Below, in pieces: positions 29,945 to 51,701 of a stretch of DNA of 64,000 bases. The notes beneath the pieces were generated by a model. That model searched no databases, was not told where the DNA came from, and saw only the letters and a program-made list of their open reading frames with translations. This DNA comes from an uncultured Pelagibacteraceae bacterium (GTDB lineage: Bacteria > Pseudomonadota > Alphaproteobacteria > Pelagibacterales > Pelagibacteraceae). The stretch is from NCBI GenBank assembly GCA_902512765.1, contig CABXKF010000001.1, forward strand, positions 17,465 through 81,464. Direction: 5' to 3'. The position numbers were made by a program, and so were the translations under genes. Numbering within the stretch: the stretch's first letter is position 1; every line of letters begins with the position of its first letter.

Positions 29945-31363
29945 TTATTTTTTTAAGGTCTTAAAGGCCTCTAGGGCAGAGGCTCTAGCTTTTTCATGGA
30001 TCACAATTGGTTGAGGATAATCTTTACCAATTATAGTTTTAATAGCTTGTTGGTATTTTAATTCCATTTCCCAAGGCTTATGAACAAATTTATTTGGCAC
30101 TTTATCTAATTCTGGCACCCATTTTTTTACATAATGTCCTTCTTTATCAAATTTTTCTCCCTGTAAAATAGGATTAAAAATTCTAAAATAAGGTGCAGCA
30201 TCCGCGCCACAACCAGCAACCCACTGCCACTGTGCAACATTATTTGCTTTATTAAAATCTAACAAACAATTTCTGAAATATTTTTCTCCTTCGATCCAAT
30301 TAATTCTCAAATGTTTAACTAAAAAAGACCCAACTACCATACGAACCCTATTATGCATCCAGCCAGTTTCGTATAATTCTCTCATACCTGCATCAACTAT
30401 TGGATAACCAGTCATTCCTGTTTTCCATGCTTTAAGATATTTGTCATTTTTGACCCAAGGAAATTTATCAAAATCTTTCCTATAATTACCTTTCAAAAAT
30501 TCTGGAAAATAATTAATTAAACTATGTGAAAATTCTCTCCACCCAAGTTCATTAATATATTTTCTGTAACCAATTCCTTTAGATTTGATTTCACCACATT
30601 TTTTCCAAATACTTGCTACATGAATTTGACCGTGTTTAATATAAGGTGAAAGTTTTGAAGTTCCTTCAACTGATGGAATGTCTCTTGTAGTTCCATAGTC
30701 TTTAATTTTACTCTCTATTAAATCATTTAAAATTTTTTTTGAATTACTCTCAGAAATTTTCCAGTATTTATCAAATTTTTTATACCAATTGTTTTTGGGT
30801 AAAATATTTTTTGGTTCAATGCAGTTTTTAAAAAAAGTTTTTTCTTTAGTCTTTTTTTTAACAATATAATTTTTAGCAGGAGCTAAACTTAAATATTTTT
30901 GCTCAGCAGTTCGCCAAAAGGGAGTAAATACTTTGAAGGGTGTTCCATCATTTTTAGTTACTTCCTGAAATTCATTTAAAATATTTCCTTTGAAATATTT
31001 AAAGTTTATTTCATTTTTAATAAAAACATCTCTAATTTTTTTTCCTTTAGCAATTACATCTGGTTCGTAAACTTTATTCCAATATACTGTAAGATTGTCC
31101 TTTTTTTTGATCTTAGAGAAAATATCCAATTCATCACCCTTAACTATTTGAAGATTGATATTATATTTTGATAAGTCTGTTTTAAAAACTTCTAATGATT
31201 TTGAGACCCACCATTTTTGAGCTTCAGTTTGATTATCAAAATTTTTATTATTATAGATAAATAAAGCAATTACATTGTCATGATTTTGAGTTGCAAATGA
31301 CAATGCAGGATTATTTTCTATTCTAAAATCATCTCTTATCCAAAAAATCCCTGTATCAGACAT
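29945..31363 (-). CDS. phrB: Deoxyribodipyrimidine photo-lyase
   Basis: 472-aa light-dependent DNA repair flavoprotein. The N-terminal antenna-binding domain begins TGIFWIRDDFRIENNPAL. The C-terminal FAD domain contains GWREFSHSLINYFPEFL, TGYPIVDAGMRELYETGWMHNR and NVAQWQWVAGCGADAAPYFR, which bind FAD and the dimer and include Trp residues of the electron-transfer chain. Photorepair fits a surface-ocean bacterium. Start is 5 bases downstream of the lyase gene stop on the same strand. Confidence 0.93.
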   Translation of the reverse strand: MSDTGIFWIRDDFRIENNPALSFATQNHDNVIALFIYNNKNFDNQTEAQKWWVSKSLEVFKTDLSKYNINLQIVKGDELDIFSKIKKKDNLTVYWNKVYEPDVIAKGKKIRDVFIKNEINFKYFKGNILNEFQEVTKNDGTPFKVFTPFWRTAEQKYLSLAPAKNYIVKKKTKEKTFFKNCIEPKNILPKNNWYKKFDKYWKISESNSKKILNDLIESKIKDYGTTRDIPSVEGTSKLSPYIKHGQIHVASIWKKCGEIKSKGIGYRKYINELGWREFSHSLINYFPEFLKGNYRKDFDKFPWVKNDKYLKAWKTGMTGYPIVDAGMRELYETGWMHNRVRMVVGSFLVKHLRINWIEGEKYFRNCLLDFNKANNVAQWQWVAGCGADAAPYFRIFNPILQGEKFDKEGHYVKKWVPELDKVPNKFVHKPWEMELKYQQAIKTIIGKDYPQPIVIHEKARASALEAFKTLKK

Positions 31364-31367
31364 GCAA

Positions 31368-32498
31368 TTAATTTTGATTAACTAATTTTTGGTACATTTC
31401 TTGATCTGTATCACCCTCACAACCAATAACTAAAACATTAGAATTTTGATCTAATTTTAAATTTTGTTTTAAATTTTGATCCTCACAACTAGCAATTAAG
31501 CTAATCACTCCTGGTGCAGAATTTTCTCCGGCTATAATAGGTTCATCACTAAAACCTGAGTTTCCAAGTAATTTCATAGTTTTTGCAATATCATCATCGG
31601 GTAAACTGATGCAATGTTTAACTGAATTTTTTAGAATTTCCCATGGGACTAATGACACTTCTCCACATGACATACCACCCATAAGACTTTCTCTTTTAAT
31701 ATCAATTTTTTCTATTTTTCCTGTTTTAATACTTTCTAAAACACAAGCTGCACTATCAGGTTCAACAATTAATGTAATGGGAACGTTATCTAAGTATCTT
31801 GCAATACCCGCAACCATTGCGCCAGCCATTCCACCAACACCTGCCTGTAAAATTATATGAGAAATTTTTTCATTTTTAATTTGATCAATAATTTCTTTCA
31901 TCATAACTGTATAACCAGCCATCGTGTATGTTGGAACTTGCATATAATTTTTCCAAGCAACATCTTGTACTATTTGCCAATTATTTTCTGTGGATTGCTT
32001 AATGCATTCTATTAGTGATTTTTCATAATTGCCTTTCACTTTAATTACATCTGCACCAAGGTCTGCCATAGCTTGACCTCTAGCATCACTAACAAACTCA
32101 CTAATAAAGATTTTACACTTAAGTCCTAATCTTCTAGCACCCCATGCAACAGATCTTCCATGATTTCCAGCAGTTGCAGTTGCAACAGTGATATTTTTAT
32201 TTCCTTGTGATACTTTTTCAACAGCATAGGCACCTCCCAGTGCTTTAAATGATTTTAAATCAAATCTTTTACTTTCATCTTTGTAATAAATTTTATTTAA
32301 ATCTAACTCATTAGATAATTTATTAAGAGATATTAATGGAGTAGGGGAATATCCTTCCCATTTTGAAATACTAGAATAAGCATCATCAATTTCTTTTTCG
32401 GATAGTGAGTTGAAAATTTGTTTTTTATCAAACGAATAATTTTTATTATCTAAAAATTCAGAATACTTCCATTGATGACCATTAGATAAAGTTGCCAT
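31368..32498 (-). CDS. PLP-dependent diaminopropionate ammonia-lyase-like enzyme
   Basis: 376-aa fold-type II PLP enzyme. YYKDESKRFDLKSFKALGGAYA contains the PLP Lys (KSFKALG), ATATAGNHGRSVAWGARRLG the phosphate loop, and LQAGVGGMAGAMVAG, LMGGMSCGEVS and IGCEGDTDQEMY the features of diaminopropionate ammonia-lyase rather than plain threonine dehydratase. EutB of ectoine clusters is a relative. It lies 3 bases after a glutamine-synthetase-like gene and in the same direction as cassette A, so a role with amino-group release from a diamino acid is plausible. Confidence 0.8.
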   Translation of the reverse strand: MATLSNGHQWKYSEFLDNKNYSFDKKQIFNSLSEKEIDDAYSSISKWEGYSPTPLISLNKLSNELDLNKIYYKDESKRFDLKSFKALGGAYAVEKVSQGNKNITVATATAGNHGRSVAWGARRLGLKCKIFISEFVSDARGQAMADLGADVIKVKGNYEKSLIECIKQSTENNWQIVQDVAWKNYMQVPTYTMAGYTVMMKEIIDQIKNEKISHIILQAGVGGMAGAMVAGIARYLDNVPITLIVEPDSAACVLESIKTGKIEKIDIKRESLMGGMSCGEVSLVPWEILKNSVKHCISLPDDDIAKTMKLLGNSGFSDEPIIAGENSAPGVISLIASCEDQNLKQNLKLDQNSNVLVIGCEGDTDQEMYQKLVNQN

Positions 32499-32501
32499 AA
32501 T

Positions 32502-33827
32502 CTAACAGTCTAAAGTATTATCTTTTTCCCACTTAGTGACTGGTTTTTTCTTATTAAATGAAAACTTGCTCTTAAAGTCTTTTATCTCAGAATTTTTAAG
32601 CTTTATGTAGCTTTCAATTACATCTTTTCCAAAGGCATCAGCTAGAGATTTACTTTTTTGAAGCATAGAAATTGCTTGATTAACATCATTAGGTAATTTT
32701 TTTAGTTTTGGATATTTTTTATAATCCTTGTACATATTGCAATGTAGTGGTTTTCCAGGATTTAATTTTTTATTAATTCCCTCAAGACCTGCAGCAATTA
32801 TTCCTGCTTGAAGTAAATATGGGTTGGCAGCACCATCCATTAATCTTAATTCAAATCTTCCTTGATCTGGAATTCTAATCATGTGTGTTCTGTTATTTCC
32901 TGTATAAGAAATACTACTTGGCGACCAAGTTGCACCAGACTTTGTCGGTGGAGCATTAATTCTTCTGTAACTATTGATTGTTGGATTAAAAAAGGCTGAT
33001 AAAGCTTGAGTATTGTTCATTACGCCTCCTAAAAAATTGTAAGCTAATTTACTTAAACCAAGCGTATCTTTTTTATCTAAAAATTTATTATCTTTACCAT
33101 TCCATACTGAAACGTGAGCATGACAACCGTTTCCAGTTAAATTATGAAAGGGTTTTGGCATGAAGGTTGCTCTTAAACCATGTTTTTCAGCTAAACTTTT
33201 AACCATATATTTAAAAAATACATGTCTATCAGCTGTAATCAATGAATCTGTATAATCCCAATTCATCTCAAATTGACCATTAGCGTCTTCATGATCATTT
33301 TGATAGGGCTTCCAGCCCATTGTAATCATGCAGTCACATATCTCTTTAATTAAATCATATCTTCTCATTAAAGCTGATTGATCATAACAAGGCTTAGATT
33401 GAATATCTCTTTGATCAGCAATTGACGATCCATCCTCTGAAATTAAAAAATATTCACATTCAACTCCAGACTTCATCTGTAATTTTTTTTGAGACATTTT
33501 TTTAATTTGCTCTTTAAGCATCACTCTTGGTGAAGCCTTTACAGGTTTTCCGTCCATGTATAAATCTGATGCCAGCCAACCAATTTCTTTATTCCATGGT
33601 AATTGAATTAAACTATCAGGATCAGGCACACCAAACATATCACTGTCAGCAGGTGTCATGTCTAACCATGTAGCAAACCCAGCAAAGCCAGCTCCATTTT
33701 TTTGCATCTCACCTATGGCTTGAGCTGGAACTAATTTAGATCTTAAAACTCCAAAAAGATCGACAAAACTTATTAGAAAATATTTTATTTTTTTTTGTTT
33801 GGCAATTTGTGAAAGATTTTTTGGCAT
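32502..33827 (-). CDS. Glutamine synthetase-like ligase of cassette A (GmaS/GlnT family)
   Basis: 441-aa glutamine-synthetase-fold protein of the GlnT/type III-like group that contains gamma-glutamylmethylamide synthetase. SGVECEYFLISEDG carries metal-binding Glu, NDHEDANGQFEMNWDYTDSL matches the GS core, GNGCHAHVSVWNGKD the ATP/glutamate loop, and SYTGNNRTHMIRIPDQGRFELRLMDG the catalytic Arg region. It would ligate glutamate with ammonia or an amine using ATP. It is the last of four cassette genes (36734 to 32502), the opposite position from its paralogue at 42371-43840. Confidence 0.85.
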   Translation of the reverse strand: MPKNLSQIAKQKKIKYFLISFVDLFGVLRSKLVPAQAIGEMQKNGAGFAGFATWLDMTPADSDMFGVPDPDSLIQLPWNKEIGWLASDLYMDGKPVKASPRVMLKEQIKKMSQKKLQMKSGVECEYFLISEDGSSIADQRDIQSKPCYDQSALMRRYDLIKEICDCMITMGWKPYQNDHEDANGQFEMNWDYTDSLITADRHVFFKYMVKSLAEKHGLRATFMPKPFHNLTGNGCHAHVSVWNGKDNKFLDKKDTLGLSKLAYNFLGGVMNNTQALSAFFNPTINSYRRINAPPTKSGATWSPSSISYTGNNRTHMIRIPDQGRFELRLMDGAANPYLLQAGIIAAGLEGINKKLNPGKPLHCNMYKDYKKYPKLKKLPNDVNQAISMLQKSKSLADAFGKDVIESYIKLKNSEIKDFKSKFSFNKKKPVTKWEKDNTLDC

Positions 33828-33861
33828 GATTAATCCTACTTGTTTAAAAAGTTTTATTCAA

Positions 33862-35169
33862 TTATTTTTTTCCAGGTATCCAATCTGTGCCAGCTAGAGG
33901 AACTCTTGCCATAGCAGCGGCCTCAACTGTTAAGGCAGCTAGATCTTCAGGTTCTAAGTTTCTAACATCTGATTTACCATTAGCTCTAGCTAACGTTTGC
34001 AACTCTAGGGTTAAAGTTGTTAAATAATTTTTAATTCTTTTGCCAGCTTCAATTGGGTTTAATCTTTTTTCTAGTTTAGGATCTTGTGTTGCAACACCTA
34101 CTGGACATCTTCCTGTATGACAGTGATGACAATAACCAGGTTCGGTTCCAAGTTTTTTATAATCTTCAACATATAAGTCGGCATTACAGTTTAAAGCCAT
34201 CATTGCAGCAGAACCGATTGATACAGCATCTGCACCCATTGCCATTGCTTTTGCAACATCTGCACCAGTTCTAATACCACCCGAAACAACAAGCTGAACT
34301 TTTCTATGCATATTTAATTCTTTTAAAGCATCAACAGCTTCTCTTAATGCACCTAAGGTTGGAATTCCAACGTGTTCAATAAAAACATCTTGAGTAGCAG
34401 CTGTTCCACCTTGCATTCCATCAAGTACAACAACATCTGCACCAGCTTTTACAGCTAATGTGGTATCGTAAAAAGGTCTTGCAGCTCCAACTTTTATATA
34501 AATTGGTTTTTCCCAATTTGTAATTTCTCTAAGTTCTTGAATTTTAATTTCTAAATCATCTGGGCCAGTCCAGTCAGGATGTCTACAAGCACTTCTTTGA
34601 TCAATTCCTTCTGGCAAGGTTCTCATTCCTGCAACTCTTTTATTAATTTTTTGACCGAGCAACATTCCGCCACCACCAGGTTTTGCTCCTTGTCCAACTA
34701 CAACTTCAATAGCGTCCGCTTTTCTTAAATCATCAGGATTCATGCCATATCTAGAAGGTAGCAATTGATAAACTAAATATTTTGAAGAACCTCTCTCTTC
34801 TTGCGTCATACCACCATCACCAGTAGTTGTTGAGGTTCCCATTGCAGATGCTCCTCTACCTAAAGCTTCTTTTGCATTAGCACCGAGTGCTCCAAAACTC
34901 ATCCCAGCAATTGTAATTGGAATATCTAGTTTGATCGGTTTTTTTGCAAATCGATCTCCTAAAATAACTGAAGTGTTACATGTTTCTCTGTAACCTTCTA
35001 ATGGGTACCTGGACATCGATGCGCCTAAAAAAACAAGATCATCAAAATCAGGAACTTTTCTTTTAGCACCCAATCCTCTTATTTGATAAATCCCTTCGTT
35101 TGCTGCTCTTTGAATTTCTTTTATTGTAGAGCTTGGAAATGTTTTAAATTCTTTAAGATCTTTTTTCAT
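33862..35169 (-). CDS. FMN/Fe-S glutamate-synthase domain protein of cassette A (MgsC-like)
   Basis: 435-aa stand-alone glutamate synthase central FMN domain (GltB2/GltS barrel). PITIAGMSFGALGANAKEALGRGA, YIKVGAARPFYDTTLAVKAGADVVVLDGMQGG and LVVSGGIRTGADVAKAMAMGADAV bind FMN; CHHCHTGRCPVGVATQDPKL is the Fe-S cysteine cluster. In N-methylglutamate synthase this is subunit C. It starts 3 bases after the GXGXG gene. Whether the amine acceptor yields glutamate or N-methylglutamate is not readable from sequence. Confidence 0.88.
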   Translation of the reverse strand: MKKDLKEFKTFPSSTIKEIQRAANEGIYQIRGLGAKRKVPDFDDLVFLGASMSRYPLEGYRETCNTSVILGDRFAKKPIKLDIPITIAGMSFGALGANAKEALGRGASAMGTSTTTGDGGMTQEERGSSKYLVYQLLPSRYGMNPDDLRKADAIEVVVGQGAKPGGGGMLLGQKINKRVAGMRTLPEGIDQRSACRHPDWTGPDDLEIKIQELREITNWEKPIYIKVGAARPFYDTTLAVKAGADVVVLDGMQGGTAATQDVFIEHVGIPTLGALREAVDALKELNMHRKVQLVVSGGIRTGADVAKAMAMGADAVSIGSAAMMALNCNADLYVEDYKKLGTEPGYCHHCHTGRCPVGVATQDPKLEKRLNPIEAGKRIKNYLTTLTLELQTLARANGKSDVRNLEPEDLAALTVEAAAMARVPLAGTDWIPGKK

Positions 35170-35171
35170 AT

Positions 35172-35852
35172 TTAGTATGCACCCACATTATCAATTTTAA
35201 AATTATATAAATTTCTAGCAGAACCATATCTTTTAAATTTTTTAGGATCTTCTGAAATATTGAGTTTTTTAAATAGTTTTGTTAATTCACCTATATTCTT
35301 TTTATCCATTTTCTTTTCCACACAATCTGCACCTAAGCTTTTAACTTTTCCTTTTACAAATATCTTAGCTTCATAAATTGAGTCTCCAAGATCTGCATCT
35401 GCATCACCCATTACAACTAAATTACCTTTTTGTGCCATAAAAGCTGACATATGGCCAACAGAACCTTTAACTACTATATCAATTCCTTTCATTGATATCC
35501 CACATCTAGAGCTTGCATCTCCTTCTATAATTAATGCACCCCCATGACCTGTCGCACCAGCTGATTGAGAGGCGTTACCTTTAACAACAATTTTACCTGA
35601 CATCATATTTTCAGCGACACCAGTTCCAACGTTTCCATGAACTGTAACAGTTGCTTTTTGATTCATACCTGCACAGTAATATCCTGTATGACCTTTGACT
35701 GTTACATCAATATCATCTTTCAAACCTGCACATATAGCGTGTTGTCCTTGAGGGTTTAAAATTTCGAACTTTCTAGTATTTTTTTTTCTATCAACATTTT
35801 GTAGATGTTGATTTACTTCTCTTAAAGTTTTTTTGTTTAAATCAAAGTTCAT
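35172..35852 (-). CDS. GXGXG glutamate-synthase domain protein of cassette A (MgsB-like)
   Basis: 226-aa right-handed beta-helix protein equivalent to the C-terminal (alpha-helix-less) domain of glutamate synthase and to subunit B of N-methylglutamate synthase. Repeated G-x-G-x-G turns appear throughout, e.g. VTVHGNVGTGVAENMMSGKIVVKG, SAGATGHGGALIIEGDASSRCG and MGDADADLGDSIYEAKIFVKG. It provides structural contacts and helps channel ammonia. Four bases separate it from the amidotransferase gene upstream. Confidence 0.88.
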   Translation of the reverse strand: MNFDLNKKTLREVNQHLQNVDRKKNTRKFEILNPQGQHAICAGLKDDIDVTVKGHTGYYCAGMNQKATVTVHGNVGTGVAENMMSGKIVVKGNASQSAGATGHGGALIIEGDASSRCGISMKGIDIVVKGSVGHMSAFMAQKGNLVVMGDADADLGDSIYEAKIFVKGKVKSLGADCVEKKMDKKNIGELTKLFKKLNISEDPKKFKRYGSARNLYNFKIDNVGAY

Positions 35853-35855
35853 AAA

Positions 35856-36734
35856 TTACCAGTGATATACTACACCAGGTTTTGGTTCAAAAATTTTTGC
35901 TGAATTTACATTTGGAAGATGCGCCATAGCTTGAAACTCAGATGCAACCGCAACATAATCTTTAGTCTCAGCAACAACAGCTGGCTTGCAAGCAATTTCA
36001 TCTCTCAATAATGCAAAGCCATCTTTTGTACCTGCAATAAAAGTATAAAACCCATCTAAATCTTTTAAACTGTTTTTTAATGTTTTTTCTAAGTCCTTAC
36101 CTTTTGATATTTGATTTGAAATATATCCAGCAGCAACCTCAGTATCATTTTCAGAATTAAAGCTTTGACCATCTTTTACAAGAGATCTTCTTACATTATT
36201 ATGATTTGATAGTGATCCATTATGAACCAAACATTCATCTTCTGATGTGGAGTAGGGGTGAGAACCTTGTGTAGTTATTGCACTTTCAGTAGCCATTCTT
36301 GTATGACCAATTCCATGCGTACCTGAAAAAGAGGATAATTTAAATTTTTTAACCACATCTTTTGGGTTACCAGTTTGTTTGAAAATATTTATACTTTTTC
36401 CATAACCTACTAACGATACTTCTGAAGTCTCTTTTTTTAATAAATCTAATATTTTAGAGGGTTTTTCGTTAGTTTCCAAAACAACATGATCCGCATAACT
36501 AGTTAACTTAATCTTTTTTATAAATTTTGATATTTTCTTTTTGAAATCTTTTTCTTTTATTTCATTAAGACAGATAGAATATTTAAATGTATTTTTATGT
36601 TCTTTCGTGTAAATCGCAAAACCTGCACTATCAGGTCCCCTTGTTGCCATGCCATCTAACATTCCAGATAAAAATTTACCTAAATGTTTTTCATATTTTT
36701 TTGTTTTTAAATAAATGCCAACAATCCCACACAT
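35856..36734 (-). CDS. Class II glutamine amidotransferase of cassette A (MgsA-like)
   Basis: 292-aa Ntn-type amidotransferase. MCGIVGIY places the catalytic Cys at residue 2 after Met removal; TRGPDSAGFAI, GTHGIGHTRMATESAITTQGSHPYS and ECLVHNGSLSNHNNVRR form the glutamine site. It resembles the N-terminal domain of glutamate synthase as a stand-alone subunit (MgsA/GlxB). The enzyme would hydrolyse glutamine or gamma-glutamylmethylamide and pass the amine to the FMN subunit. It begins 10 bases after a small membrane-protein ORF (36745-36897). Confidence 0.88.
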   Translation of the reverse strand: MCGIVGIYLKTKKYEKHLGKFLSGMLDGMATRGPDSAGFAIYTKEHKNTFKYSICLNEIKEKDFKKKISKFIKKIKLTSYADHVVLETNEKPSKILDLLKKETSEVSLVGYGKSINIFKQTGNPKDVVKKFKLSSFSGTHGIGHTRMATESAITTQGSHPYSTSEDECLVHNGSLSNHNNVRRSLVKDGQSFNSENDTEVAAGYISNQISKGKDLEKTLKNSLKDLDGFYTFIAGTKDGFALLRDEIACKPAVVAETKDYVAVASEFQAMAHLPNVNSAKIFEPKPGVVYHW

Positions 36735-36744
36735 AAGTTTTGGT

Positions 36745-36897
36745 TTAGTTTATTAAAGAAATTATAAAATCCTTATAGTAGATTAGATTAACTACTACAA
36801 TGATGATAATGGCCGCTATCACTCCATATTTAGCTTTAGGGAAAGCTACTCCTCTCATTTTGCTAGGTCGAAGTTCTTCGTTATTTTTATCTGTCAT
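36745..36897 (-). CDS. Small single-pass membrane protein (50 aa)
   Basis: A 51-codon frame (ATG at 36897, TAA at 36745) between the terminator at 36906 and the amidotransferase gene. The peptide opens with MTDKNNEELRPSKMRGVAFP and then one strongly hydrophobic helix (YGVIAAIIIIVVVNLIYY), finishing with a short tail. Composition and position suggest a real membrane protein that opens the cassette A transcript. It is not a member of any family I recognise; no Shine-Dalgarno is obvious. Confidence 0.6.
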   Translation of the reverse strand: MTDKNNEELRPSKMRGVAFPKAKYGVIAAIIIIVVVNLIYYKDFIISLIN

Positions 36898-36905
36898 ATT
36901 TTTAT

Positions 36906-36939
36906 CAAAAAAAAAGGGCGCCACAATTAAGTAGCGCCC
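36906..36939 (-). terminator. Intrinsic terminator after the amt-linked small gene
   Basis: Stem 36916-36924 / 36931-36939 (GGGCGCCAC with GTAGCGCCC, one mismatch) and a 9-base A run at 36907-36915, which is a T-run on the minus strand. It separates the amt transcript from cassette A. Confidence 0.9.
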
Positions 36940-36955
36940 AGATTTTTATATTATT

Positions 36956-37180
36956 TTACCAATCGGTAATATTACTTTTATAGTCATTTCCACCACGTCT
37001 TTTTCTAGCTTGTTTAGCGAGTTTCTCACTCTCCGAATTGCCAGTTAAAACATGCCAGCCTATCCACAAAACAATACCAAGTACAACTAGTAAAGTTTCG
37101 CTAGAACCAGCTCCCGGATAAACTGCTCCGACAACCTCTTTAGCACTTAAATGATCTATCCAGTTTGTTACTGTAGCCAT
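36956..37180 (-). CDS. Small single-pass membrane protein next to amt
   Basis: 74 aa. Hydrophilic N-terminus, a hydrophobic helix around residues 28-46 (ETLLVVLGIVLWIGWHVLTG) and a strongly basic tail (KLAKQARKRRGGNDYKSN). It starts 11 bases after the amt stop and has GGAG upstream, and a terminator follows it, so it is the last gene of the Amt transcript. Function unknown; a partner or regulator of the transporter is a reasonable guess from position only. Confidence 0.8.
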   Translation of the reverse strand: MATVTNWIDHLSAKEVVGAVYPGAGSSETLLVVLGIVLWIGWHVLTGNSESEKLAKQARKRRGGNDYKSNITDW

Positions 37181-37191
37181 ATTTTTCTCCT

Positions 37192-38592
37192 TTACCTAGT
37201 TGAAGAGGAGACCGCTTTTTCAGCTTCTTTGTCATCCTCCATCATTTCATAGTCTAGTCCAGCTATTTCTACTTCACGTGGTATTCTTAATTTACCAAAA
37301 GCGCTTAGTATTTTAGCTATGACATAGCCTGGTATTAGTCCAAGAACTACGAACATTATTATTGCTCCTAGAAATTGTCCTAATGGGTTAATAGATGCGT
37401 AAGTTGATCCGTCCCACATAGCGCCAACACTGTATCCAGATGATGGGTAACCATTTAAAACAAATCCACAAATCACAAGACCAACAAAACCAGCATAACC
37501 ATGTACTGCTACAGCACCAACTGCATCATCGATTTTGAACTTACGTTCAACCCAGTAATGTAGTTTGTATGCAATAACAACACCGATCATACCAATGATC
37601 ATTGCTTGAATTGGATGATATAAATCATTTCCAGCTGAAGCACAGATGACACCTGCTAGTCCACTTGAGTAAGTCCAGAAAGGATCACCTTTAGCAATCC
37701 AGTATCCAGCTAATAACCCACCTGATAATGACATCAAGAAGTTAAAAGTAATACCACTAAGTGTAGTAGGGGTTACATATATGTTTGTAGCTGTCCAGTA
37801 TGTTACACCTTCCATTCCATATTCAGGTCCAAGATCAAATATCGGTATATTACATGCCGCATAAAATCCCCAGAAACCAGTATAGATTAAGAATAATCCA
37901 ACTGTAACTAACCAAGGGTTTCTTGGTCCTATATTTCTTGGCTCACCACTTGATGAGAATTTTCCAATTCTTGGTCCTAAAACCATAAGAACACCTAAAG
38001 CAAATCCACCCGCAATTGCGTGAATTACTCCTGATGCATAAGCATCGTGATATCCTAAAATTTTAAGCATCCAGCCATCAAAGTGCCATCCCCAAGCAGC
38101 ATCAATTACCCAGAAACACGAACCTATTGCAATTGCTAAAATTCCAAATGCAAAAGTTGTAATTCTTTCAATGATTGCTCCTGAAACAATAGAAGCAGCT
38201 GTCCATGAAAATAGTAAGAACGCAGCCCAGAATACACCACTTATGTGGTCACCTAAATTAATAGCCATGAATTCTGAGTTAGCCAAATACCATTTAGCAC
38301 TAAAAGTACTTTCATCGGTTATCAATGCAGCACTTTCATTCATTATTGAAGGTGCAATTCCAGGTCCTGTTGGAAATGCCCAGTAAATCCACCAACCAAA
38401 GAAAAACCAAGTTACTGTTACCAAAGGTATCAGCATTGTATTTTTCATAAGAGTATGTTGGTGATGTTTGTATCGAGAAGCTCCAACTTCATACATACAG
38501 AAACCGACGTGAATTAAAAACATCAGTACCACTGTTACCCAGTAGTAAAATTCTGTAAATATGGTTGTAAGAGCACCTAACTGATCAGTCAT
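37192..38592 (-). CDS. amt: Ammonium transporter Amt
   Basis: 466-aa polytopic membrane protein with about eleven helices. Typical segments: FLIHVGFCMYEVGASRYKHH, WHFDGWMLKILGYHDAYASGVIHAIAGGFALG, VAVHGYAGFVGLVICGFVLNGYP. The twin-His pore residues lie in the GVIHAIAGG and AVHGYAGF helices. Larger than E. coli AmtB, as in other alphaproteobacteria. SD GGGAGAG is upstream of the ATG. Placement between two amine-assimilation cassettes and without glnK nearby suggests it supplies ammonium or methylammonium to them. Confidence 0.94.
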   Translation of the reverse strand: MTDQLGALTTIFTEFYYWVTVVLMFLIHVGFCMYEVGASRYKHHQHTLMKNTMLIPLVTVTWFFFGWWIYWAFPTGPGIAPSIMNESAALITDESTFSAKWYLANSEFMAINLGDHISGVFWAAFLLFSWTAASIVSGAIIERITTFAFGILAIAIGSCFWVIDAAWGWHFDGWMLKILGYHDAYASGVIHAIAGGFALGVLMVLGPRIGKFSSSGEPRNIGPRNPWLVTVGLFLIYTGFWGFYAACNIPIFDLGPEYGMEGVTYWTATNIYVTPTTLSGITFNFLMSLSGGLLAGYWIAKGDPFWTYSSGLAGVICASAGNDLYHPIQAMIIGMIGVVIAYKLHYWVERKFKIDDAVGAVAVHGYAGFVGLVICGFVLNGYPSSGYSVGAMWDGSTYASINPLGQFLGAIIMFVVLGLIPGYVIAKILSAFGKLRIPREVEIAGLDYEMMEDDKEAEKAVSSSTR

Positions 38593-38662
38593 AATCTCTC
38601 TCCCATATTAGTTTATAGAACCCTATAAAATTTTGTAAGGTGTGACAAACAAAACAATGCTT

Positions 38663-38690
38663 AAAAACCTAGCGTGAACACTAGGTTTTT
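38663..38690 (-). terminator. Intrinsic terminator upstream of amt
   Basis: Perfect 10-bp inverted repeat AAAAACCTAG (38663-38672) / CTAGGTTTTT (38681-38690) with an 8-base loop. In the minus direction it ends the cassette B transcript just after the 140-aa gene, so amt presumably has its own promoter in 38593-38660. Confidence 0.85.
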
Positions 38691-38718
38691 AATTAATTAT
38701 CAACTTAAGATTGTTTTA

Positions 38719-39141
38719 TTAGAATTTTAAGTAAGCTTTTTTCAAATCAACAAGAGGATGTTTTGGAGACATTTGAAACTTAACCAAAAGTTCTCTTGCA
38801 ATCATATCTCTATCTTGTTGGTTGTTAGGAAGTTTAATAGATTTTGGAATAGTAACCCAGCCATTTGCGTTTCTGCAAAATACAGCTGGTTTTCCTTCTT
38901 CATAACCCATATGAACATCTTCTAACCAGTTAAGATCATCCCAACCCATAGCTTCTACATATTTTTTAAGAAATGGAGTAATTCTTTTATAATCAGGAAG
39001 TAAGTTTACATCATATCTATAACCAATATGTTGGCCAATTAGTTTTTCTCTTGCTGTTTCTTTAAAAGTACCAAGCTTTAGTTTTTTCTCTTTTTTAACT
39101 TTGCTTTTTGCTTTTGTTTTTTTTGTTTTTTTCTTAGCCAT
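38719..39141 (-). CDS. Conserved protein with lysine-rich N-terminus linked to cassette B
   Basis: 140 aa of unknown function. Residues 1-22 are almost all Lys/Thr/Ala (KKKTKKTKAKSKVKKEKK), then a globular part with IGYRYDVNLLPDYKRIT, AMGWDDLNWLEDVHMGYEEGKPAVFC and a C-terminal KKAYLKF. The neighbouring FMN subunit also begins with a KKKTKK tail, an unusual shared property. It starts 8 bases after that gene and is the last gene before the terminator, so it is probably a cassette-specific accessory protein. Confidence 0.7.
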   Translation of the reverse strand: MAKKKTKKTKAKSKVKKEKKLKLGTFKETAREKLIGQHIGYRYDVNLLPDYKRITPFLKKYVEAMGWDDLNWLEDVHMGYEEGKPAVFCRNANGWVTIPKSIKLPNNQQDRDMIARELLVKFQMSPKHPLVDLKKAYLKF

Positions 39142-39149
39142 AGTTACCT

Positions 39150-40553
39150 CTATATTTTGTGATAGTTATCAACACCAACTGTGTAGTTTGTTCCAGCTAA
39201 TGGAACTTTTGCTAAAGCAGATGCTTCCGTAGTTAATGCAGCTAAATCTTCAGGCTCTAAAGAGTGAATATTAGTTTTACCACATGCTCTTGCTAAAAGT
39301 TGAGCTTCTAACGTCATTGAATGAAGATAGTTGTAAACTCTAAGTGCAGCATCATCAGGATTTAATCTTGCTCTTAGTTTAGGATCCTGTGTTGCAACAC
39401 CAACTGGACAACGACCAGTATGACAGTGATAACATTCACCAGCTTTTACACCCATTTCTTTTTCAAAGTTAGCTTCTGGGATATCTTTATTACAGTTTAA
39501 GGCGATCATTGATCCAGTACCTATTGCAATTGCATCAGCACCTAACGCTAAAGCTTTTGCCATATCAGCACCATCTCTTACACCACCAGCATAAATTAAA
39601 GTAACTTTACCAGTTTTACCCACATCGTCGATTGCTCTTCTTGCTTCTCTAATTGCAGCTATTCCTGGAATACCAGTATTTGCAGCAGCAATGTGTGGTC
39701 CAGCTCCAGTAGAACCTTCCATTCCATCTAAATAGATAGAGTCGGGGTCACATTTTGCAGCCATACGAACATCATCATAAACTTTTGATGCACCAAGTTT
39801 TAACTGAATTGGCACTTTGTTTTTTGTTAATTGTCTTAATTCTTCAACTTTTAAAGCTAAATCATCTGGACCTAACCAGTCAGGGTGTCTAGCAGGTGAT
39901 CTTTGATCGATACCTGAAGGTAATGATCTCATCTCAGCTACTTGGTCAGTTACTTTTTGACCCATTAAGTGTCCACCCATTCCAACTTTTTGACCTTGAC
40001 CAATGAAAACTTCAATTCCATCTGCTAGTTGAGCGTGATGTGGATTAAAACCGTATCTTGATTGAATACATTGGTAGTACCATTTTTCAGAATATCTTCT
40101 TTCATCAGGTATCATTCCACCTTCTCCTGAACAAGTTGCACTACCAGCCATAGTAGCTCCTCTTGCTAAAGCAGTTTTTGCTTCATAAGAAAGTGCTCCA
40201 AAACTCATACCAGTAATGTAAACAGGTATATCAAGTTCAATTGGGTTTTCACATCTTGGTCCAATTACAGTCTTAGTTTCACATTTTTCTCTGTAACCTT
40301 CGATTACAAATCTTGTAAGTGTTCCAGGTAGAAAAACTAGATCATCAAATGTTGGAATTTTTTTCATTAATGCCATTCCACGCATTCGGTATCTACCTAA
40401 CTGAGATTTGATATGAATATCGTCTATTACCTCAGGAGTAAAAATAGCATTATGACCTAATAAACTTTTATTTCTTTTTCCATCTTCATGTGCATGAACG
40501 TCTGCTTTTCCACCAACGCCCTTACCATTTTTTTTTGTTTTTTTCTTAGGCAT
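39150..40553 (-). CDS. FMN/Fe-S glutamate-synthase domain protein of cassette B (MgsC-like)
   Basis: 467 aa, about 30 longer than its cassette A paralogue because of a lysine- and glycine-rich N-terminal tail (PKKKTKKNGKGVGGK). Barrel and FMN motifs: PVYITGMSFGALSYEAKTALARGA, IQLKLGASKVYDDVRMAAKC and LIYAGGVRDGADMAKALALGADAI. The Fe-S cluster motif is CYHCHTGRCPVGVATQDPKLRARL. Likely the catalytic synthase subunit with 40553-41407 and 41395-42339. Sequence identity to the cassette A protein is high in these motifs but it is clearly diverged. Confidence 0.88.
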   Translation of the reverse strand: MPKKKTKKNGKGVGGKADVHAHEDGKRNKSLLGHNAIFTPEVIDDIHIKSQLGRYRMRGMALMKKIPTFDDLVFLPGTLTRFVIEGYREKCETKTVIGPRCENPIELDIPVYITGMSFGALSYEAKTALARGATMAGSATCSGEGGMIPDERRYSEKWYYQCIQSRYGFNPHHAQLADGIEVFIGQGQKVGMGGHLMGQKVTDQVAEMRSLPSGIDQRSPARHPDWLGPDDLALKVEELRQLTKNKVPIQLKLGASKVYDDVRMAAKCDPDSIYLDGMEGSTGAGPHIAAANTGIPGIAAIREARRAIDDVGKTGKVTLIYAGGVRDGADMAKALALGADAIAIGTGSMIALNCNKDIPEANFEKEMGVKAGECYHCHTGRCPVGVATQDPKLRARLNPDDAALRVYNYLHSMTLEAQLLARACGKTNIHSLEPEDLAALTTEASALAKVPLAGTNYTVGVDNYHKI

Positions 40554-41407
40554 TAAATTGCTCCTTTCTTCTCTGTAGGTTCTAAATTATCGTAATTCCA
40601 AAGTTTTTTACCAGCTACAATTTTTTTCATTTTGCTTACATCAAAATTTTCACCGATTTCTGCAACTTTTAATTTTCGTTTTAACCAGTCTTGGTCACTT
40701 TTTGAAAGATCAGCATCAACAGCATCACTACCATATGAGCCAATACTTCCGCCAACAAAAATAGTACCATCATACATAGAGTCACCTAAATTTATTCCAA
40801 CATCCCCAAGAATAATTATTCTACCTCTTTGCATCATGAAACCTGTAAATGCACCAGCGTCACCACCAACAATAATTGTTCCACCTTTCATATCAATACC
40901 AGTTCTAGCACCAACACTACCTTTGCAAATTAAGTCTCCACCTCTGATAGCTGCTCCAAAACATGATCCTGCATTTTTTTCGATTACAACTTTACCAGCC
41001 ATTAAGTTTTCAGCACAAGACCAACCAACTCTACCATTAATTCTAACAGTAGGGCCATCACATGAACCCATACCAAAATAACCTAAACTTCCTTCAAAAA
41101 TTAAGTTTAATTTATTCAAAATTCCAACACCTAAACTATGTTTTCCTTGTGGGTTTTTAATAACAATAGTTCCATAACCTTGACTCATTAAATTATCGAT
41201 TTCCTTATTAGCTTCTGGAGCCGACATATCTTTTACATCAAGATCTGTTCTTTTATTGAAATCAACATCATAAGTACCAAAGTAATAAAAGTTTTCAGCT
41301 TCATCAGGGTTAAAAAACTTTTGTTGAGTTCTTCCTGTTAAAACTTCACTGTGCATCCCCATTGACTGGGCTTTTGATTTCTTCTCGCTTGTTTTTAGAT
41401 TTGCCAT
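40553..41407 (-). CDS. GXGXG glutamate-synthase domain protein of cassette B (MgsB-like)
   Basis: 284 aa: an N-terminal extension of roughly 60 residues absent from the cassette A copy, then the beta-helix with repeated G-x-G-x-G turns (GMGSCDGPTVRINGRVGWS, GSVGARTGIDMKGGTIIVGGDAG, LGDVGINLGDSMYDGTIFVGG). It overlaps the FMN gene by one base and the amidotransferase gene by 13, typical of a co-translated complex. Confidence 0.88.
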   Translation of the reverse strand: MANLKTSEKKSKAQSMGMHSEVLTGRTQQKFFNPDEAENFYYFGTYDVDFNKRTDLDVKDMSAPEANKEIDNLMSQGYGTIVIKNPQGKHSLGVGILNKLNLIFEGSLGYFGMGSCDGPTVRINGRVGWSCAENLMAGKVVIEKNAGSCFGAAIRGGDLICKGSVGARTGIDMKGGTIIVGGDAGAFTGFMMQRGRIIILGDVGINLGDSMYDGTIFVGGSIGSYGSDAVDADLSKSDQDWLKRKLKVAEIGENFDVSKMKKIVAGKKLWNYDNLEPTEKKGAI

Positions 41408-42339
41408 ACTTTTACCTCTCCATCAAATGGATCATATGTATCAATTTCTTGTGGAAGAACTGATCTGATCGCTATTTCTTCTGAACCCATTGCAACTAAA
41501 TCATCTGACTCGTAAAGAACTAATGGTTTTGCAGCCATAGTATCTTTTGCCATTCCTAACGAGTCGCTTGTTGCAACAAAATAAGTAAATACTCCATCAA
41601 GTCCTGTTAAAGAGTCTCTCATACCTTCTTCAAGACTTGCTCCCTCTCTCATTTTTTGAGCAATATAAACTGCGATTAATTCTGAGTCACACTCAGACAT
41701 AAATCTCATACCTTTATTTTCTAATGCTCTTCTATTGTTCCAATAATTTGTAAGTTGTCCGTTATGAACCACCGATACATCACTAAAAGGATAACCCCAA
41801 AAAGGGTGGGCTGATTTAATATCAACACCAGACTCTGTTGCCATTCTAGCATGACCAATTGCATGAGTTCCAACAAGTTTATCTAATGAATATCTATCAC
41901 AAACTGCTTTAGCATTTCCAAGATCTTTAATTACTTCTAAAGATTTACCCATAGAAAGAATTTCAACACCTGGAATACTTTCAATTTTTTGTGAAAAATC
42001 TAATAGATCTTTTTTATCATAAGAGATTTCATATCTTAGTGAATAGGGTAGAGTTCTTTCTTCTTTTAGAACTTTAGCCCCTAACTCTGCTAAATATTGA
42101 TCTACTATTTTCTTTCTTTCATCGTAAACAGAAACATCTTCCATAATAGACGAGCTTCCTTCACCAACATTTTCTCCTACTTTGAAACGCATGATAAAAT
42201 TTTTACCATCTGTATCACCGTATAAAGCGTAACCTGTTGAGTCTTCACCTCTATGTTTTAATGCTTGAAGCATACCCTGTAGTTCACTTCCTACGTTTGA
42301 AGATTTGCCTCTATGTATTAGTCCAGCTATCCCACACAT
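41395..42339 (-). CDS. Class II glutamine amidotransferase of cassette B (MgsA-like)
   Basis: 314 aa. MCGIAGLIHRG supplies the Cys nucleophile; KHRGEDSTGYALYG, GTHAIGHARMATESGVDIKSAHPFW and SVVHNGQLTNYWNNRR form the glutamine-binding pocket. It is a separate subunit, as in N-methylglutamate synthase and unlike ordinary GltB, where this domain is fused to the rest. It starts about 30 bases after the ligase gene. Confidence 0.88.
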   Translation of the reverse strand: MCGIAGLIHRGKSSNVGSELQGMLQALKHRGEDSTGYALYGDTDGKNFIMRFKVGENVGEGSSSIMEDVSVYDERKKIVDQYLAELGAKVLKEERTLPYSLRYEISYDKKDLLDFSQKIESIPGVEILSMGKSLEVIKDLGNAKAVCDRYSLDKLVGTHAIGHARMATESGVDIKSAHPFWGYPFSDVSVVHNGQLTNYWNNRRALENKGMRFMSECDSELIAVYIAQKMREGASLEEGMRDSLTGLDGVFTYFVATSDSLGMAKDTMAAKPLVLYESDDLVAMGSEEIAIRSVLPQEIDTYDPFDGEVKVWQI

Positions 42340-42370
42340 ATATTTTACCCCTTTTATTTATTTTTAAGAC

Positions 42371-43840
42371 CTACGGTAGACAATCAAGATAAGTGTCCAG
42401 ATCCCATTGAGTTGTTGCACCTAAAAATCTTTCCCATTCATCATTTTTATACCAATGAAATACTTTGTACATTTCATCTGGCATAGCTGATTTAATAACC
42501 TCATCCTCAGCTAAACGGTCAAGTGCTTGACCAAGACTTAAAGGTAATTTTTTAACTTCTTTACCAGCTGCTTGAGCTTCGTACATACTTCTAGACTCTG
42601 GTTTTCCTGGATCAATGTTGTTTGATATCCCATCTTCAAAACATTTTAATAATCCTGAACCCATCAAGTAAGGATTATGCATCGAGTCAACTGAACGATA
42701 TTCAAATCTTCCTGGTGCTGATACTCTTAATCCACAAGTTCTATTTTGATATCCCCAGTCTGCATAAACTGGTGCCCAAAAACCTGTATCCCATAATCTT
42801 CTATAAGAGTTTACTGTTGATGATCCAATAGCAGTCAAAGCACCTAAGTGTTTCATAACACCACCAATAGCTTTTAATCCAACTTTACCTGGTAACTGGA
42901 CATCTTTAGTATCTGGCATAAAAGTATTTGTTCCACCCTCAACATAAGTAAATACTTCGTCCATTGCAGGGATAGATTTATGAGATAATTTATTAACTTT
43001 ATCTTTTCCACCTTTCCACAAAGACATGTTGGTGTGACAACCACTTGCAGACACGCCCATAAAAGGTTTTGTCATAAAGCAAGCAATCAAATTAAATTCT
43101 CTAGCAACTTGAGCACAAATTTGCCTATAAGTTGAAAGTCTGTCTGCATTTCTTAAAACATCATCATACATCCAGTTTAATTCTAATTGACCTGGTGCAT
43201 CTTCATGGTCACCTTGAATCATATCAAGACCCATGGCTCTTGCATATTTCATTACTTGCATGAAAACAGGTCTTAAAGACTCAAATTGATCTATGTGATA
43301 ACAATAGGGTTTAGAAAAACCTTTACCAGTCGGCGTTCCATCTTCATTTTTAGTTAGCCACATCATTTCTGGTTCAGTTCCAACTCTTAACTGATATCCA
43401 TGTTTTTTCTTAAATTCTTGAGCGTGAATTCTTAGGTTTCCACGGCAATCTGAGGTTAAATGAGCACCTGGATTATCTCTTTCTTCTCTGTTTCTAAAAC
43501 AAGTAACAAATACTCTTGCAACTTTTTTATCCCAAGGCAACTGACAAAAAGTTTCTGGATCTGGAATTCCAACTAATTCTTTTGCTTCTGGTCCATACCC
43601 AATATAATTTCCGTGACGATCAACAAATAAGTTTGCTGTTGCACCATAAACTAATTGAAATCCTTTTTCACAAGTTCTTTCCCAGTGATCAGTAGGAATA
43701 CCTTTACCTACAACTCTTCCAGTAACAGAAATAAATTGAAAAAAAATATATTCAATACCAAGTTCATTAATCTTAGCTCTAACTTGCTTTACTAACTTTG
43801 CTCTACCTGGTTGGTTAACGTGTTTGTCTAGATCAGTCAT
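42371..43840 (-). CDS. glnT: Type III-like glutamine synthetase of cassette B (GmaS/GlnT family)
   Basis: 489 aa using the ATG at 43840; the ATG at 43849 would leave no spacing after GGGGGA, whereas 43840 gives eight bases. LRVGTEPEMMWLTKNEDGTPTG, GDHEDAPGQLELNWMYDDV, SGCHTNMSLWKGG and APGRFEYRSVDSMHNPYLMG correspond to the metal, ATP and glutamate sites of the GS fold. Members include gamma-glutamylmethylamide synthetase and ammonia-dependent GlnT. It is the first gene of cassette B, whereas the cassette A ligase is last. Confidence 0.87.
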   Translation of the reverse strand: MTDLDKHVNQPGRAKLVKQVRAKINELGIEYIFFQFISVTGRVVGKGIPTDHWERTCEKGFQLVYGATANLFVDRHGNYIGYGPEAKELVGIPDPETFCQLPWDKKVARVFVTCFRNREERDNPGAHLTSDCRGNLRIHAQEFKKKHGYQLRVGTEPEMMWLTKNEDGTPTGKGFSKPYCYHIDQFESLRPVFMQVMKYARAMGLDMIQGDHEDAPGQLELNWMYDDVLRNADRLSTYRQICAQVAREFNLIACFMTKPFMGVSASGCHTNMSLWKGGKDKVNKLSHKSIPAMDEVFTYVEGGTNTFMPDTKDVQLPGKVGLKAIGGVMKHLGALTAIGSSTVNSYRRLWDTGFWAPVYADWGYQNRTCGLRVSAPGRFEYRSVDSMHNPYLMGSGLLKCFEDGISNNIDPGKPESRSMYEAQAAGKEVKKLPLSLGQALDRLAEDEVIKSAMPDEMYKVFHWYKNDEWERFLGATTQWDLDTYLDCLP

Positions 43841-43912
43841 TATTTTCATCCCCCAATGAATTTTATTTATTCAAAGTTAGCTGAAAAACTTATTAGTGTC
43901 TAGGCTTGAAGT

Positions 43913-45241
43913 TTAACTCCAAGGGAACGGACTGTTCGATGTAGGGTGAAGTTCACCTTTCTCGTAACGGTTGAATCTAAACGGTTTCAATAAATCACTC
44001 TCAGTACCAAGAATTTCTTTTGCAACAAGTTCACCCACACCAATCATTTTATAACCGTGATTAGCATCAGCAATCATGTAAACATTTTCTAAAAATCTAT
44101 CAAAGATTGGAAATGAGTCTGGCGTCATACATCCAAGACCACCGGATGGTCCTTTTCTATAAAGATCTGATTTACCTTCAAATCTTTTTTGGCAATGAGC
44201 TAATGCAGAACACCACATATCATTAAATGCTTCAGTAGTTTGAAATTCTGGTGAGTCTAAACCGTATGGATCTACATTAACTTTATCAAAATGTTTATCA
44301 ACTATGTATGGAGAAGTTCCACCTTGAACTCCCAAACCTTCAATATCAGGTTTATAATAAATTCCCCAAATTTTTTCTGTGATTAATTTTTTTGTTTTGT
44401 CTGAGTATAATGGCGCAGTAGAGTCAACGTGGATTACTGGTGGTTGTTTTCCATTATTCATCTTTAAAAAATCTGGCTCAACACCAATTACACCTTCTTG
44501 AAGCATCCAATATGTCCACATATCAGTTTCGTGAAACTTACCATCTTTGCCTTTAATATTAGCTTTCTTAGGAAGTTCTAACATGTTCCAAAAGTCTCTA
44601 GCCCATGGACCTGCTCCAACAACTACTTGTTCACACTCTATTGTACCTTTGTCAGTTTCAACTCCTGTAACTGCTTTACTATTACTGCCTCTTTTAAATC
44701 CTTTAACTGTTACACCCTTCATAACCTGGACTCCATTTGAAGTAGACTTATCTTCAAGTGCTCTAATTGAGTCTTTATTAAATGCGTACCCACCTTTTTT
44801 TTCATGAAGTACTGATGTGATTCCTTGAGCTTGCCAATCATCAAACATACCTTTCATGTAATCCATGCAATCTTTTTCACCTTCAATAAATTCTGATTCG
44901 TAACCAATTGCTTTTTGTTGTTCATAGATAGTTGCAACATCTTCGTGCATTACTTCTGGTGAAATTTGTAAATAACCAACTGGGTTATATTTAAATGCTT
45001 TAGGATCGCTCTCCCAAACAGAAACAGAGTGAGCCATTAATTCTCTCATAGCTGGTTGGAAGTAATTATTTCTAACAACTCCACAAGCAATACCACTTGC
45101 TCCAGCTGCAATATCTTTTTTTTCAAGAACTACAATGTCGCCAGGATTTTTATAAGTCTCTGAAAGTTTCCAGGCTGTACTTAAACCGTGGATACCACCG
45201 CCTATAATTACTACTTTTGCTTTTGATGGTAATGTAGACAT
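43913..45241 (-). CDS. SoxB-like FAD-dependent oxidoreductase
   Basis: 442-aa DadA/SoxB-family flavoenzyme. The dinucleotide site is KVVIIGGGIHGLSTAWKLSE, with AAGASGIACGVVRNNYF next to the flavin. Middle: VVVGAGPWARDFW; C-terminal: SGGLGCMTPDSFPIFDRF and ANHGYKMIGVGELVAKE. It resembles sarcosine oxidase beta subunits and dimethylglycine-oxidising enzymes, here without its own alpha, gamma or delta genes. It follows a regulator-like gene and a DUF1989-GcvT fusion gene on the same strand, consistent with oxidation of an N-methylated amino acid with formyl transfer to tetrahydrofolate. Confidence 0.85.
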   Translation of the reverse strand: MSTLPSKAKVVIIGGGIHGLSTAWKLSETYKNPGDIVVLEKKDIAAGASGIACGVVRNNYFQPAMRELMAHSVSVWESDPKAFKYNPVGYLQISPEVMHEDVATIYEQQKAIGYESEFIEGEKDCMDYMKGMFDDWQAQGITSVLHEKKGGYAFNKDSIRALEDKSTSNGVQVMKGVTVKGFKRGSNSKAVTGVETDKGTIECEQVVVGAGPWARDFWNMLELPKKANIKGKDGKFHETDMWTYWMLQEGVIGVEPDFLKMNNGKQPPVIHVDSTAPLYSDKTKKLITEKIWGIYYKPDIEGLGVQGGTSPYIVDKHFDKVNVDPYGLDSPEFQTTEAFNDMWCSALAHCQKRFEGKSDLYRKGPSGGLGCMTPDSFPIFDRFLENVYMIADANHGYKMIGVGELVAKEILGTESDLLKPFRFNRYEKGELHPTSNSPFPWS

Positions 45242-51698: not shown

Positions 51699-51701
51699 AA
51701 T

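Follow-up and report, generated by a model that had tools for sequence, protein, structure and literature searches.

The genomes of SAR11 bacteria, a group that has been called the most abundant heterotrophs of the sea, hold genes for converting trimethylamine N-oxide (TMAO) to dimethylamine (DMA), an aerosol precursor. Passages of PMC5520151 speak of a 'metabolic bottleneck' in SAR11, for want of an enzyme that demethylates DMA. According to passages of PMC8918994, HTCC1062 has no dmmDABC, in place of which it 'may recruit an isoenzyme', and can use TMAO as its only nitrogen source, growing far less well than with ammonium. From this growth, some DMA route should exist. A candidate was found in the window analysed here, a 64-kb stretch of DNA from a SAR11 (Pelagibacteraceae) bacterium whose assembly is 61 % complete. 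Two paralogous amine-assimilation cassettes, A and B, lie on either side of a gene for an Amt-family transporter, each encoding a ligase of the glutamine synthetase family and the pieces of a split synthase, and cassette B is accompanied by a gene for a FAD amino-acid oxidase, called DAO in the following (Table 1). With a probability of roughly 0.6, we take cassette B and DAO to be a paralogous, glutamate-mediated route for DMA, the product of the TMAO demethylase Tdm.

An earlier note on this DNA had described the two cassettes around amt and their different gene orders; all frames were confirmed, on the minus strand. Both cassettes also share the catalytic motifs claimed for them, with a Met-Cys-Gly start in the amidotransferases (35/35 fetched B homologues) and CHTGRCPVG in the FMN/iron-sulfur (FMN/Fe-S) subunits (34/35). 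Cassette A is the known monomethylamine pathway gmaS-mgsABC. Its ligase exceeds the cut-off of the type III model TIGR03105 for the GmaS family, scores 571.7 bits against the solved RhGmaS (7cql) and forms one clade with RhGmaS (support 98/92) in a tree of 40 of the 70 ligases. The set mgsA-mgsB-mgsC-gmaS is contiguous, with gaps of 2 to 34 bases, and matches SAR11_1313-1316 of HTCC1062, for which N-methylglutamate synthase and GmaS were proposed by Sun and others in passages of PMC3160333. Of the substrate split suggested before, the part assigning gamma-glutamylmethylamide and N-methylglutamate to one cassette thus stands for cassette A; the part that would let the other make glutamine and glutamate is not supported, given the genome's own glnA and gltB and the GmaS-type amine site described below.

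Judged by sequence, cassette B is an old paralogous set. Global identity between A and B proteins is 36.7 % for the amidotransferases, 34.7 % for the GXGXG subunits, 51.4 % for the FMN subunits and 29.2 % for the ligases (29-51 % in all), and cassette-B ligases of other alphaproteobacterial families are 64-76 % identical to that of the window, in agreement with the old duplication claimed earlier; in Pelagibacteraceae records identity reaches up to 99 %. From the ligase through the small protein the genes are separated by -13 to 31 bases. The longest ligase frame starts at 43849 (492 amino acids, aa), and the homologues align from the ATG at 43840 (489 aa), the start given in the earlier note. 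Among 80 SAR11 loci, all retrieved via the B ligase and counted where the contig left room, the four genes after the ligase were present in 67/67, DAO in 57/57 and Tdm in 56/57. In the fetched loci outside SAR11, with genes located by tblastn where GC content was high, the order ligase, amidotransferase, GXGXG, FMN subunit and small protein recurs where the contig permits; DAO mostly precedes the cassette, comes after it in G286 and G075, and lies on another contig in some genomes. The small protein had been called lysine-rich, which holds for its N-terminal tail; the remainder is a conserved core, with 52 invariant columns across 24 sequences. It was present in 67/67 SAR11 loci with room and in 32/40 fetched loci, gave no match in Pfam or NCBIfam, and its structure model (predicted local distance difference test, pLDDT, 70.8) matched no solved fold at E <= 0.001.

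By gene order, cassette B would correspond to SAR11_1305-1309, and it is hardly discussed in the searchable literature. The available passages of PMC3160333 contain no mention of SAR11_1305-1309; SAR11_1309 appears in an excerpt of PMC2704228 as a 'hyp. protein' preceding amt SAR11_1310; and a table on sulfur-limited stationary phase in an excerpt of PMC5069961 lists SAR11_1305 as 'glnT, Glutamine synthetase' with a first ratio of 0.19, and the nearby SAR11_1302 opuAC with 0.22. Two side observations concern the cassette and its surroundings. A look-alike protein of 182-217 aa recurs beside cassette B outside SAR11 (L184 16050-16610, L198 14595-15143, L183 10756-11409, L181 4026-4616), two scanned copies of which had no Pfam match, and one contig filed as Actinomycetota (L013) carries a B ligase 98 % identical to a SAR11 one and is probably mis-binned.

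By its residues, the B ligase resembles alkylamine ligases and not glutamine synthetases. The methylamine pocket proposed for RhGmaS comprises Lys30', Tyr147, Gln175, Asp177, Glu179, Glu186 and Asn188 (passages of PMC7948447), and none of the seven is changed in any of the 35 B ligases compared, the residue table excluding G194 and G071 with their broken or cut frames; the corresponding residues of the genome's own GlnA, the sole glutamine synthetase aligned, are L, Y, K, H, E, E and G. At the Glu-flap position of glutamine synthetase, Trp300 was found in 35/35 B ligases and E in the own GlnA, and in a gapped part of the alignment the Asp of the Asp50 loop, a D in the own GlnA, is replaced by Val in 35/35. 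Five further positions differ from GmaS in 35/35 B ligases, namely A48V, Y174I, N176G, G231A and H237N. For RhGmaS itself, passages of PMC7948447 give a Km of 27 uM with methylamine, 8.7 mM with NH4Cl and 16 mM with DMA, so that DMA is a substrate, if a poor one, of a GmaS. The B ligase reaches 290.5 bits, below the GmaS family cut-off of 469.6, and the B ligases together with a further paralogue, GS-B2, form their own long branch outside the GmaS clade (100/99); the group of B ligases without GS-B2 (GS-B) is supported only at 46/74, and GlnA is a single row on a very long branch.

GS-B2 is 53-65 % identical to the B ligases and was seen in L216 (G373), L217 (G266) and L149 (15001-16467), and as second copies in G163, G165, G261, G289 and G338. 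In G266 and G373 GS-B2 stands without synthase subunits beside another gene like that of glutamine synthetase, and on a Paracoccus plasmid it is near genes for an aldehyde dehydrogenase and a gamma-glutamyl-GABA hydrolase.

The phylogenetic profile suggests that the substrate is DMA. In a first sample of 385 alphaproteobacterial genomes, full-length Tdm (at least 1000 bits; 29/34 above the model cut-off, partial hits in G079 and G088 left out) was found in 34, a B-type ligase in 40 and both in 27. With G266 and G373, which have only GS-B2, dropped, 38 cassette-B genomes remained, two of them (G193, G346) scored from the ligase alone at contig ends, and the association of Tdm with cassette B gave p 2e-26 (2e-25 with the two paralogue-only genomes). 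PF11927 (HODM/DmmA), the family to which we take DmmA to belong, served as proxy for the DMA monooxygenase, and matches of at least 220 bits were called strong, a line set after the scores had been seen. PF11927 was matched in 49/385 genomes, strongly in 0/27 with both Tdm and B ligase and in 4/7 with Tdm and no B ligase (G283, G159, G252, G310). A second sample of 319 genomes of the phylum contained 23 with Tdm, 17 of them new and 15 of those in the same class; PF11927 (at least 222 bits) was found in 17/17 of the new genomes, B ligase in 0/17 and DAO in 0/17, and as positive control the same queries had matched 40 genomes for the B ligase and 35 for DAO. In the combined 51 Tdm genomes, 27 had only the B ligase, 21 only strong PF11927, 3 neither and none both (Fisher p 2e-11), the B ligase occurring in 27/30 without and in 0/21 with strong PF11927. 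These p values are too small, because the genomes are related and the families unevenly sampled, and the count by family is fairer (13 vs 8, 1 with neither; p 3e-5). With weak PF11927 hits counted as well, 25 genomes had only the B ligase, 23 only PF11927, 1 neither and 2 both (p 4e-11). Cassette B lies no more than 25 kb from tdm in 15/27 genomes, and DmmA in 15/21. The specialisation of the cassettes proposed in the earlier note is supported by these results; its argument from a four-piece glutamate synthase is weak on its own, since MgsABC is itself known in split form, and a difference in affinity alone, its other suggestion, fails to explain the mutual exclusion of B ligase and DmmA among Tdm genomes.

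DAO follows the same pattern, being present in 33/38 cassette-B genomes vs 1/24 Tdm genomes without the cassette. Its structure model (pLDDT 90.4) had SoxB beta, L-proline dehydrogenase, DMGDH and monomeric sarcosine oxidase as best folds, with Foldseek E values of 1e-29 to 3ada_B and 3e-25 to rat DMGDH at 17-20 % identity, and no GcvT domain was found in the domain scan. The model points to a sarcosine oxidase beta/DMGDH fold, as in oxidases of N-methyl or secondary amino acids. SAR11_1304, the counterpart of DAO, was discussed by Sun and others as a monomeric sarcosine oxidase in passages of PMC3160333.

From these data a route may be drawn whose chemistry is modelled on the glutamine synthetase/glutamate synthase (GS/GOGAT) system and on the GMAS/NMGS cascade, itself proposed in passages of PMC6237917 with unknown redox cofactors of NMGS. 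The B ligase would join DMA to the gamma-carboxyl group of glutamate with ATP, giving gamma-glutamyldimethylamide. The amidotransferase would then release DMA inside the synthase complex, which we presume to include the small fourth protein, and the FMN/Fe-S subunit would condense it with 2-oxoglutarate and reduce the iminium to N,N-dimethylglutamate. DAO would oxidise one methyl group to leave N-methylglutamate, and a dehydrogenase of soxBDAG/mgd type would strip the second, returning glutamate. Such a route would replace the O2-dependent DMA monooxygenase DmmDABC, absent from SAR11. What was observed is which genes these are, that they are conserved and linked, the residues of the amine site, the joint occurrence with Tdm and the mutual exclusion with DmmA; the substrate and each chemical step of the scheme are inferred.

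The distribution of gmaS and of the last dehydrogenase bears on this scheme. Genes of soxA type were found in 42/44 genomes searched, including 38/38 cassette-B genomes, with a model that cannot tell sarcosine from N-methylglutamate dehydrogenases; the SAR11 genomes G098 and G375 had no match for soxA type, B ligase, full-length Tdm, DAO or gmaS. In cassette-B genomes gmaS was found in 29/38 and unmatched in 9/38, several of which are incomplete, and G086 (100 %), G194 (98 %) and G077 (95 %) are not; three genomes of one genus agree. Genes of sox/mgd type lie beside cassette B in G048, G269 and G194 and 13.6 kb from the B ligase in G086, which together with the lack of gmaS fits a cassette B that delivers N-methylglutamate directly. 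Within SAR11, 53 loci extend at least 9.9 kb beyond the B ligase, and A-type synthase genes were present in 16/53 and missing from the gmaS locus in 37/53; in most of the latter, which are among the SAR11 loci L009-L088, gmaS directly follows amt, as it also does in L180 of the 99 % complete genome G207. From the 40 gmaS matches, in 35 genomes, 30 loci were examined with 1.5 kb on each side, and 15/30 have an A-type subunit next to gmaS, 10/25 in cassette-B genomes and 5/5 in others (p 0.04); no second mgs set was found in the two stretches of G207 searched, one of them around its other sox locus. Synthase B may thus process the products of both ligases, B and GmaS. We give about even odds to a wider claim, in which all intermediates of DMA catabolism are bound to glutamate, a dimethylglutamate synthase of four subunits works together with a dehydrogenase dedicated to this route, and the DMA step missing from SAR11 and from a dozen other Tdm-bearing families of Alphaproteobacteria is filled in this way; in many SAR11 a single synthase would then be shared by the B ligase, acting on DMA, and GmaS, acting on methylamine.

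Several observations weigh against the DMA route. As the first-shell pocket is that of GmaS, a preference for DMA is not evident from the ligase sequence alone, and the family also includes GS-B2, whose gene neighbours are different. With no A-type synthase at the gmaS locus in 37/53 SAR11 loci, synthase B may use methylamine as well, or even chiefly, to form N-methylglutamate. In G159 and in G297, a SAR11 genome with no full-length Tdm, DAO is present and cassette B is not, and DAO was not found in 5/38 cassette-B genomes, among them G366 and G077, which are at least 95 % complete. Eleven cassette-B genomes have no full-length Tdm, and the Tdm genomes G259, G335 and G022 carry neither system. 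Weaker PF11927 hits exist (172.6 bits in G022; 51-59 bits in G259, G030 and G337, the latter three counted as other members of PF11927), and the exclusion may partly reflect ancestry or habitat: family f174 supplies 11/17 of the new Tdm genomes, none of the 17 having a B ligase.

Alternatively, cassette B could be a second monomethylamine pathway, with DAO alone or an unknown enzyme demethylating DMA. The GmaS-like first shell, the 9/38 genomes that are without a gmaS match and retain soxA/mgd-type genes, the many gmaS loci without their own synthase and a DAO that tracks the cassette are all in line with this. However, gmaS would be redundant in the 29/38 genomes that have it, all 35 B ligases differ from GmaS at the five checked positions, and neither the exclusion of B ligase and DmmA nor G366 (98 % complete), which has Tdm and cassette B with no match for DAO or PF11927, would be explained, and we consider this pathway unlikely. 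Somewhat less likely still is another amine, e.g. ethylamine or an N-methyl amino acid such as sarcosine, for a cassette that merely neighbours the TMAO genes: the 11 genomes without full-length Tdm, the DAO of G297 and the surroundings of GS-B2, including those on the Paracoccus plasmid, speak for it, and co-occurrence with Tdm and the DmmA exclusion speak against it. For a split ammonia GS/GOGAT one could cite the adjoining Amt and the domains, which are glutamate synthase pieces and a ligase of the glutamine synthetase family. This role was rejected and appears very improbable, as the genome carries separate glnA (441.5 bits) and gltB (486.6 bits) genes and the ammonia-site residues are absent from 35/35 B ligases. 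The B FMN subunit is also far under the glutamate synthase cut-off of 1047 bits (133.6 bits), but so is that of cassette A (151.5 bits), and this cut-off, of a 1490-residue model, is hardly reachable for a single domain. The glutamate-mediated DMA route remains our preferred reading.

The cassettes stand among further genes (Table 1). One minus-strand run comprises tdm, a 116 aa protein, DAO, cassette B, Amt, cassette A, an ammonia-lyase-like gene and a photolyase; genes like tmoX and tmoV/W are divergent to tdm, and soxG/soxA/soxB-like genes stand at the end of the window. The order SAR11_1302-1304 is given in passages of PMC3160333. One region thus combines TMAO transport, TMAO demethylation and a likely route to glutamate. 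By sequence, the sox-like genes of the window could be of N-methylglutamate or of sarcosine dehydrogenase type, either one.

Table 1. Features of the 64-kb window with position, strand and family matches.
Feature	Position	Strand	Match
Photolyase gene, closing the run	29945..31363	-	
Diaminopropionate ammonia-lyase-like gene	31368..32498	-	409.5 bits, model cut-off 276
Cassette A gmaS, gamma-glutamylmethylamide synthetase (Gln-synt_C), 441 aa	32502..33827	-	TIGR03105 627.6 bits, cut-off 469.6
Cassette A mgsC-like FMN/Fe-S synthase (Glu_synthase), 435 aa	33862..35169	-	PF01645 318.4 bits
Cassette A mgsB-like GXGXG, 226 aa	35172..35852	-	PF01493 53.7 bits
Cassette A mgsA-like amidotransferase (GATase_6), 292 aa	35856..36734	-	PF13522 63.8 bits
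Amt-family transporter, between cassettes	37192..38592	-	PF00909 179.6 bits; TIGR00836 181.7 bits, under cut-off 343.3
Cassette B small conserved protein, 140 aa; proposed fourth synthase B subunit	38719..39141	-	
Cassette B FMN/Fe-S synthase subunit (Glu_synthase), 467 aa	39150..40553	-	PF01645 298 bits
Cassette B GXGXG subunit, 284 aa	40553..41407	-	PF01493 55.7 bits
Cassette B amidotransferase subunit (GATase_6), 314 aa	41395..42339	-	PF13522/PF13537
Cassette B ligase (GS-B, Gln-synt_C); proposed gamma-glutamyldimethylamide synthetase (SAR11_1305 by gene order)	42371..43840	-	PF00120
DAO, FAD amino-acid oxidase; proposed N,N-dimethylglutamate dehydrogenase (= SAR11_1304)	43913..45241	-	PF01266
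Small protein, 116 aa, regulator-like by look only	45345..45695	-	no family match
tdm, TMAO demethylase (to dimethylamine and formaldehyde)	45701..48028	-	NF053776 1176.4 bits, cut-off 1100
tmoX-like TMAO binding protein (= SAR11_1302)	48143..49114	+	PF04069 135.6 bits
tmoV/tmoW-like ATPase and permease genes, same transporter type as tmoX-like	50667..53855	+	TIGR01186 347.4 bits (above cut-off); TIGR03416 326.6 bits (cut-off 363)
soxG-, soxA- and end of soxB-like genes	59719..63952	-	TIGR01375 71.9, TIGR01372 1323.2, TIGR01373 186.3 bits

For Amt, a widened Phe gate admitting methylated ammonium was considered and rejected: the gate Phe, one His, the Asp and the Trp are kept in 13/13 sequences, the second Phe and second His in 12/13 with a gap in one row, and the Ser219 position lies in a gap, the roles of these gate residues being those that we presume. 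The 116 aa protein has a counterpart of 79 % identity in G207 and stays beside DAO in G297. The ammonia-lyase-like gene, which closely follows gmaS in the window, stays with gmaS in many SAR11 loci and is near DAO in G297, and the order with the photolyase is kept in many SAR11 loci as well. In L218 of G297, the ammonia-lyase-like and photolyase genes are immediately preceded by DAO and the 116 aa protein, and on the other side of DAO lie a FGGY-family kinase and transporter genes, glycerol-related by look; this locus is a possible site of gene exchange.

A literature search covering sources other than subscription papers and preprints found no title or abstract opening that proposes a glutamate-mediated DMA route. 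The question of the SAR11 DMA step now has a named candidate operon which can be tested directly. If a second DMA pathway is real, counts of DmmA in metagenomes underestimate DMA consumption. The second SAR11 'glnT' (SAR11_1305) should be counted neither as gmaS nor as glutamine synthetase.

Cassette B is made up of relatives of known parts; the pathway, should it prove real, would be new within the reach of our searches. With GmaS and MgsABC (and MgdABCD) it shares the ligase of the glutamine synthetase family, the class II amidotransferase, the GXGXG protein and the FMN/Fe-S glutamate-synthase domain, and its ligase keeps the GmaS amine pocket; it differs in gene order, in the extra conserved small protein and the associated DAO, in a ligase that branches apart from the GmaS clade and is altered next to the pocket, and in its linkage to tdm and mutual exclusion with strong DmmA. 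GS/GOGAT (GlnA, GltBD) has the same two-step logic and domain families, but identity between the genome's own GltB and each of the two FMN subunits is only 32 %, and the B ligase is without the ammonia-site residues. DAO has the fold of sarcosine oxidase beta and DMGDH and is set apart from them by the lack of a detected GcvT domain and by its association with cassette B. DmmDABC, finally, performs the DMA step after Tdm (passages of PMC5520151) and is likewise often near tdm, but its proteins are unrelated to those of cassette B, and it depends on O2 and frees methylamine, whereas cassette B would need glutamate and ATP.

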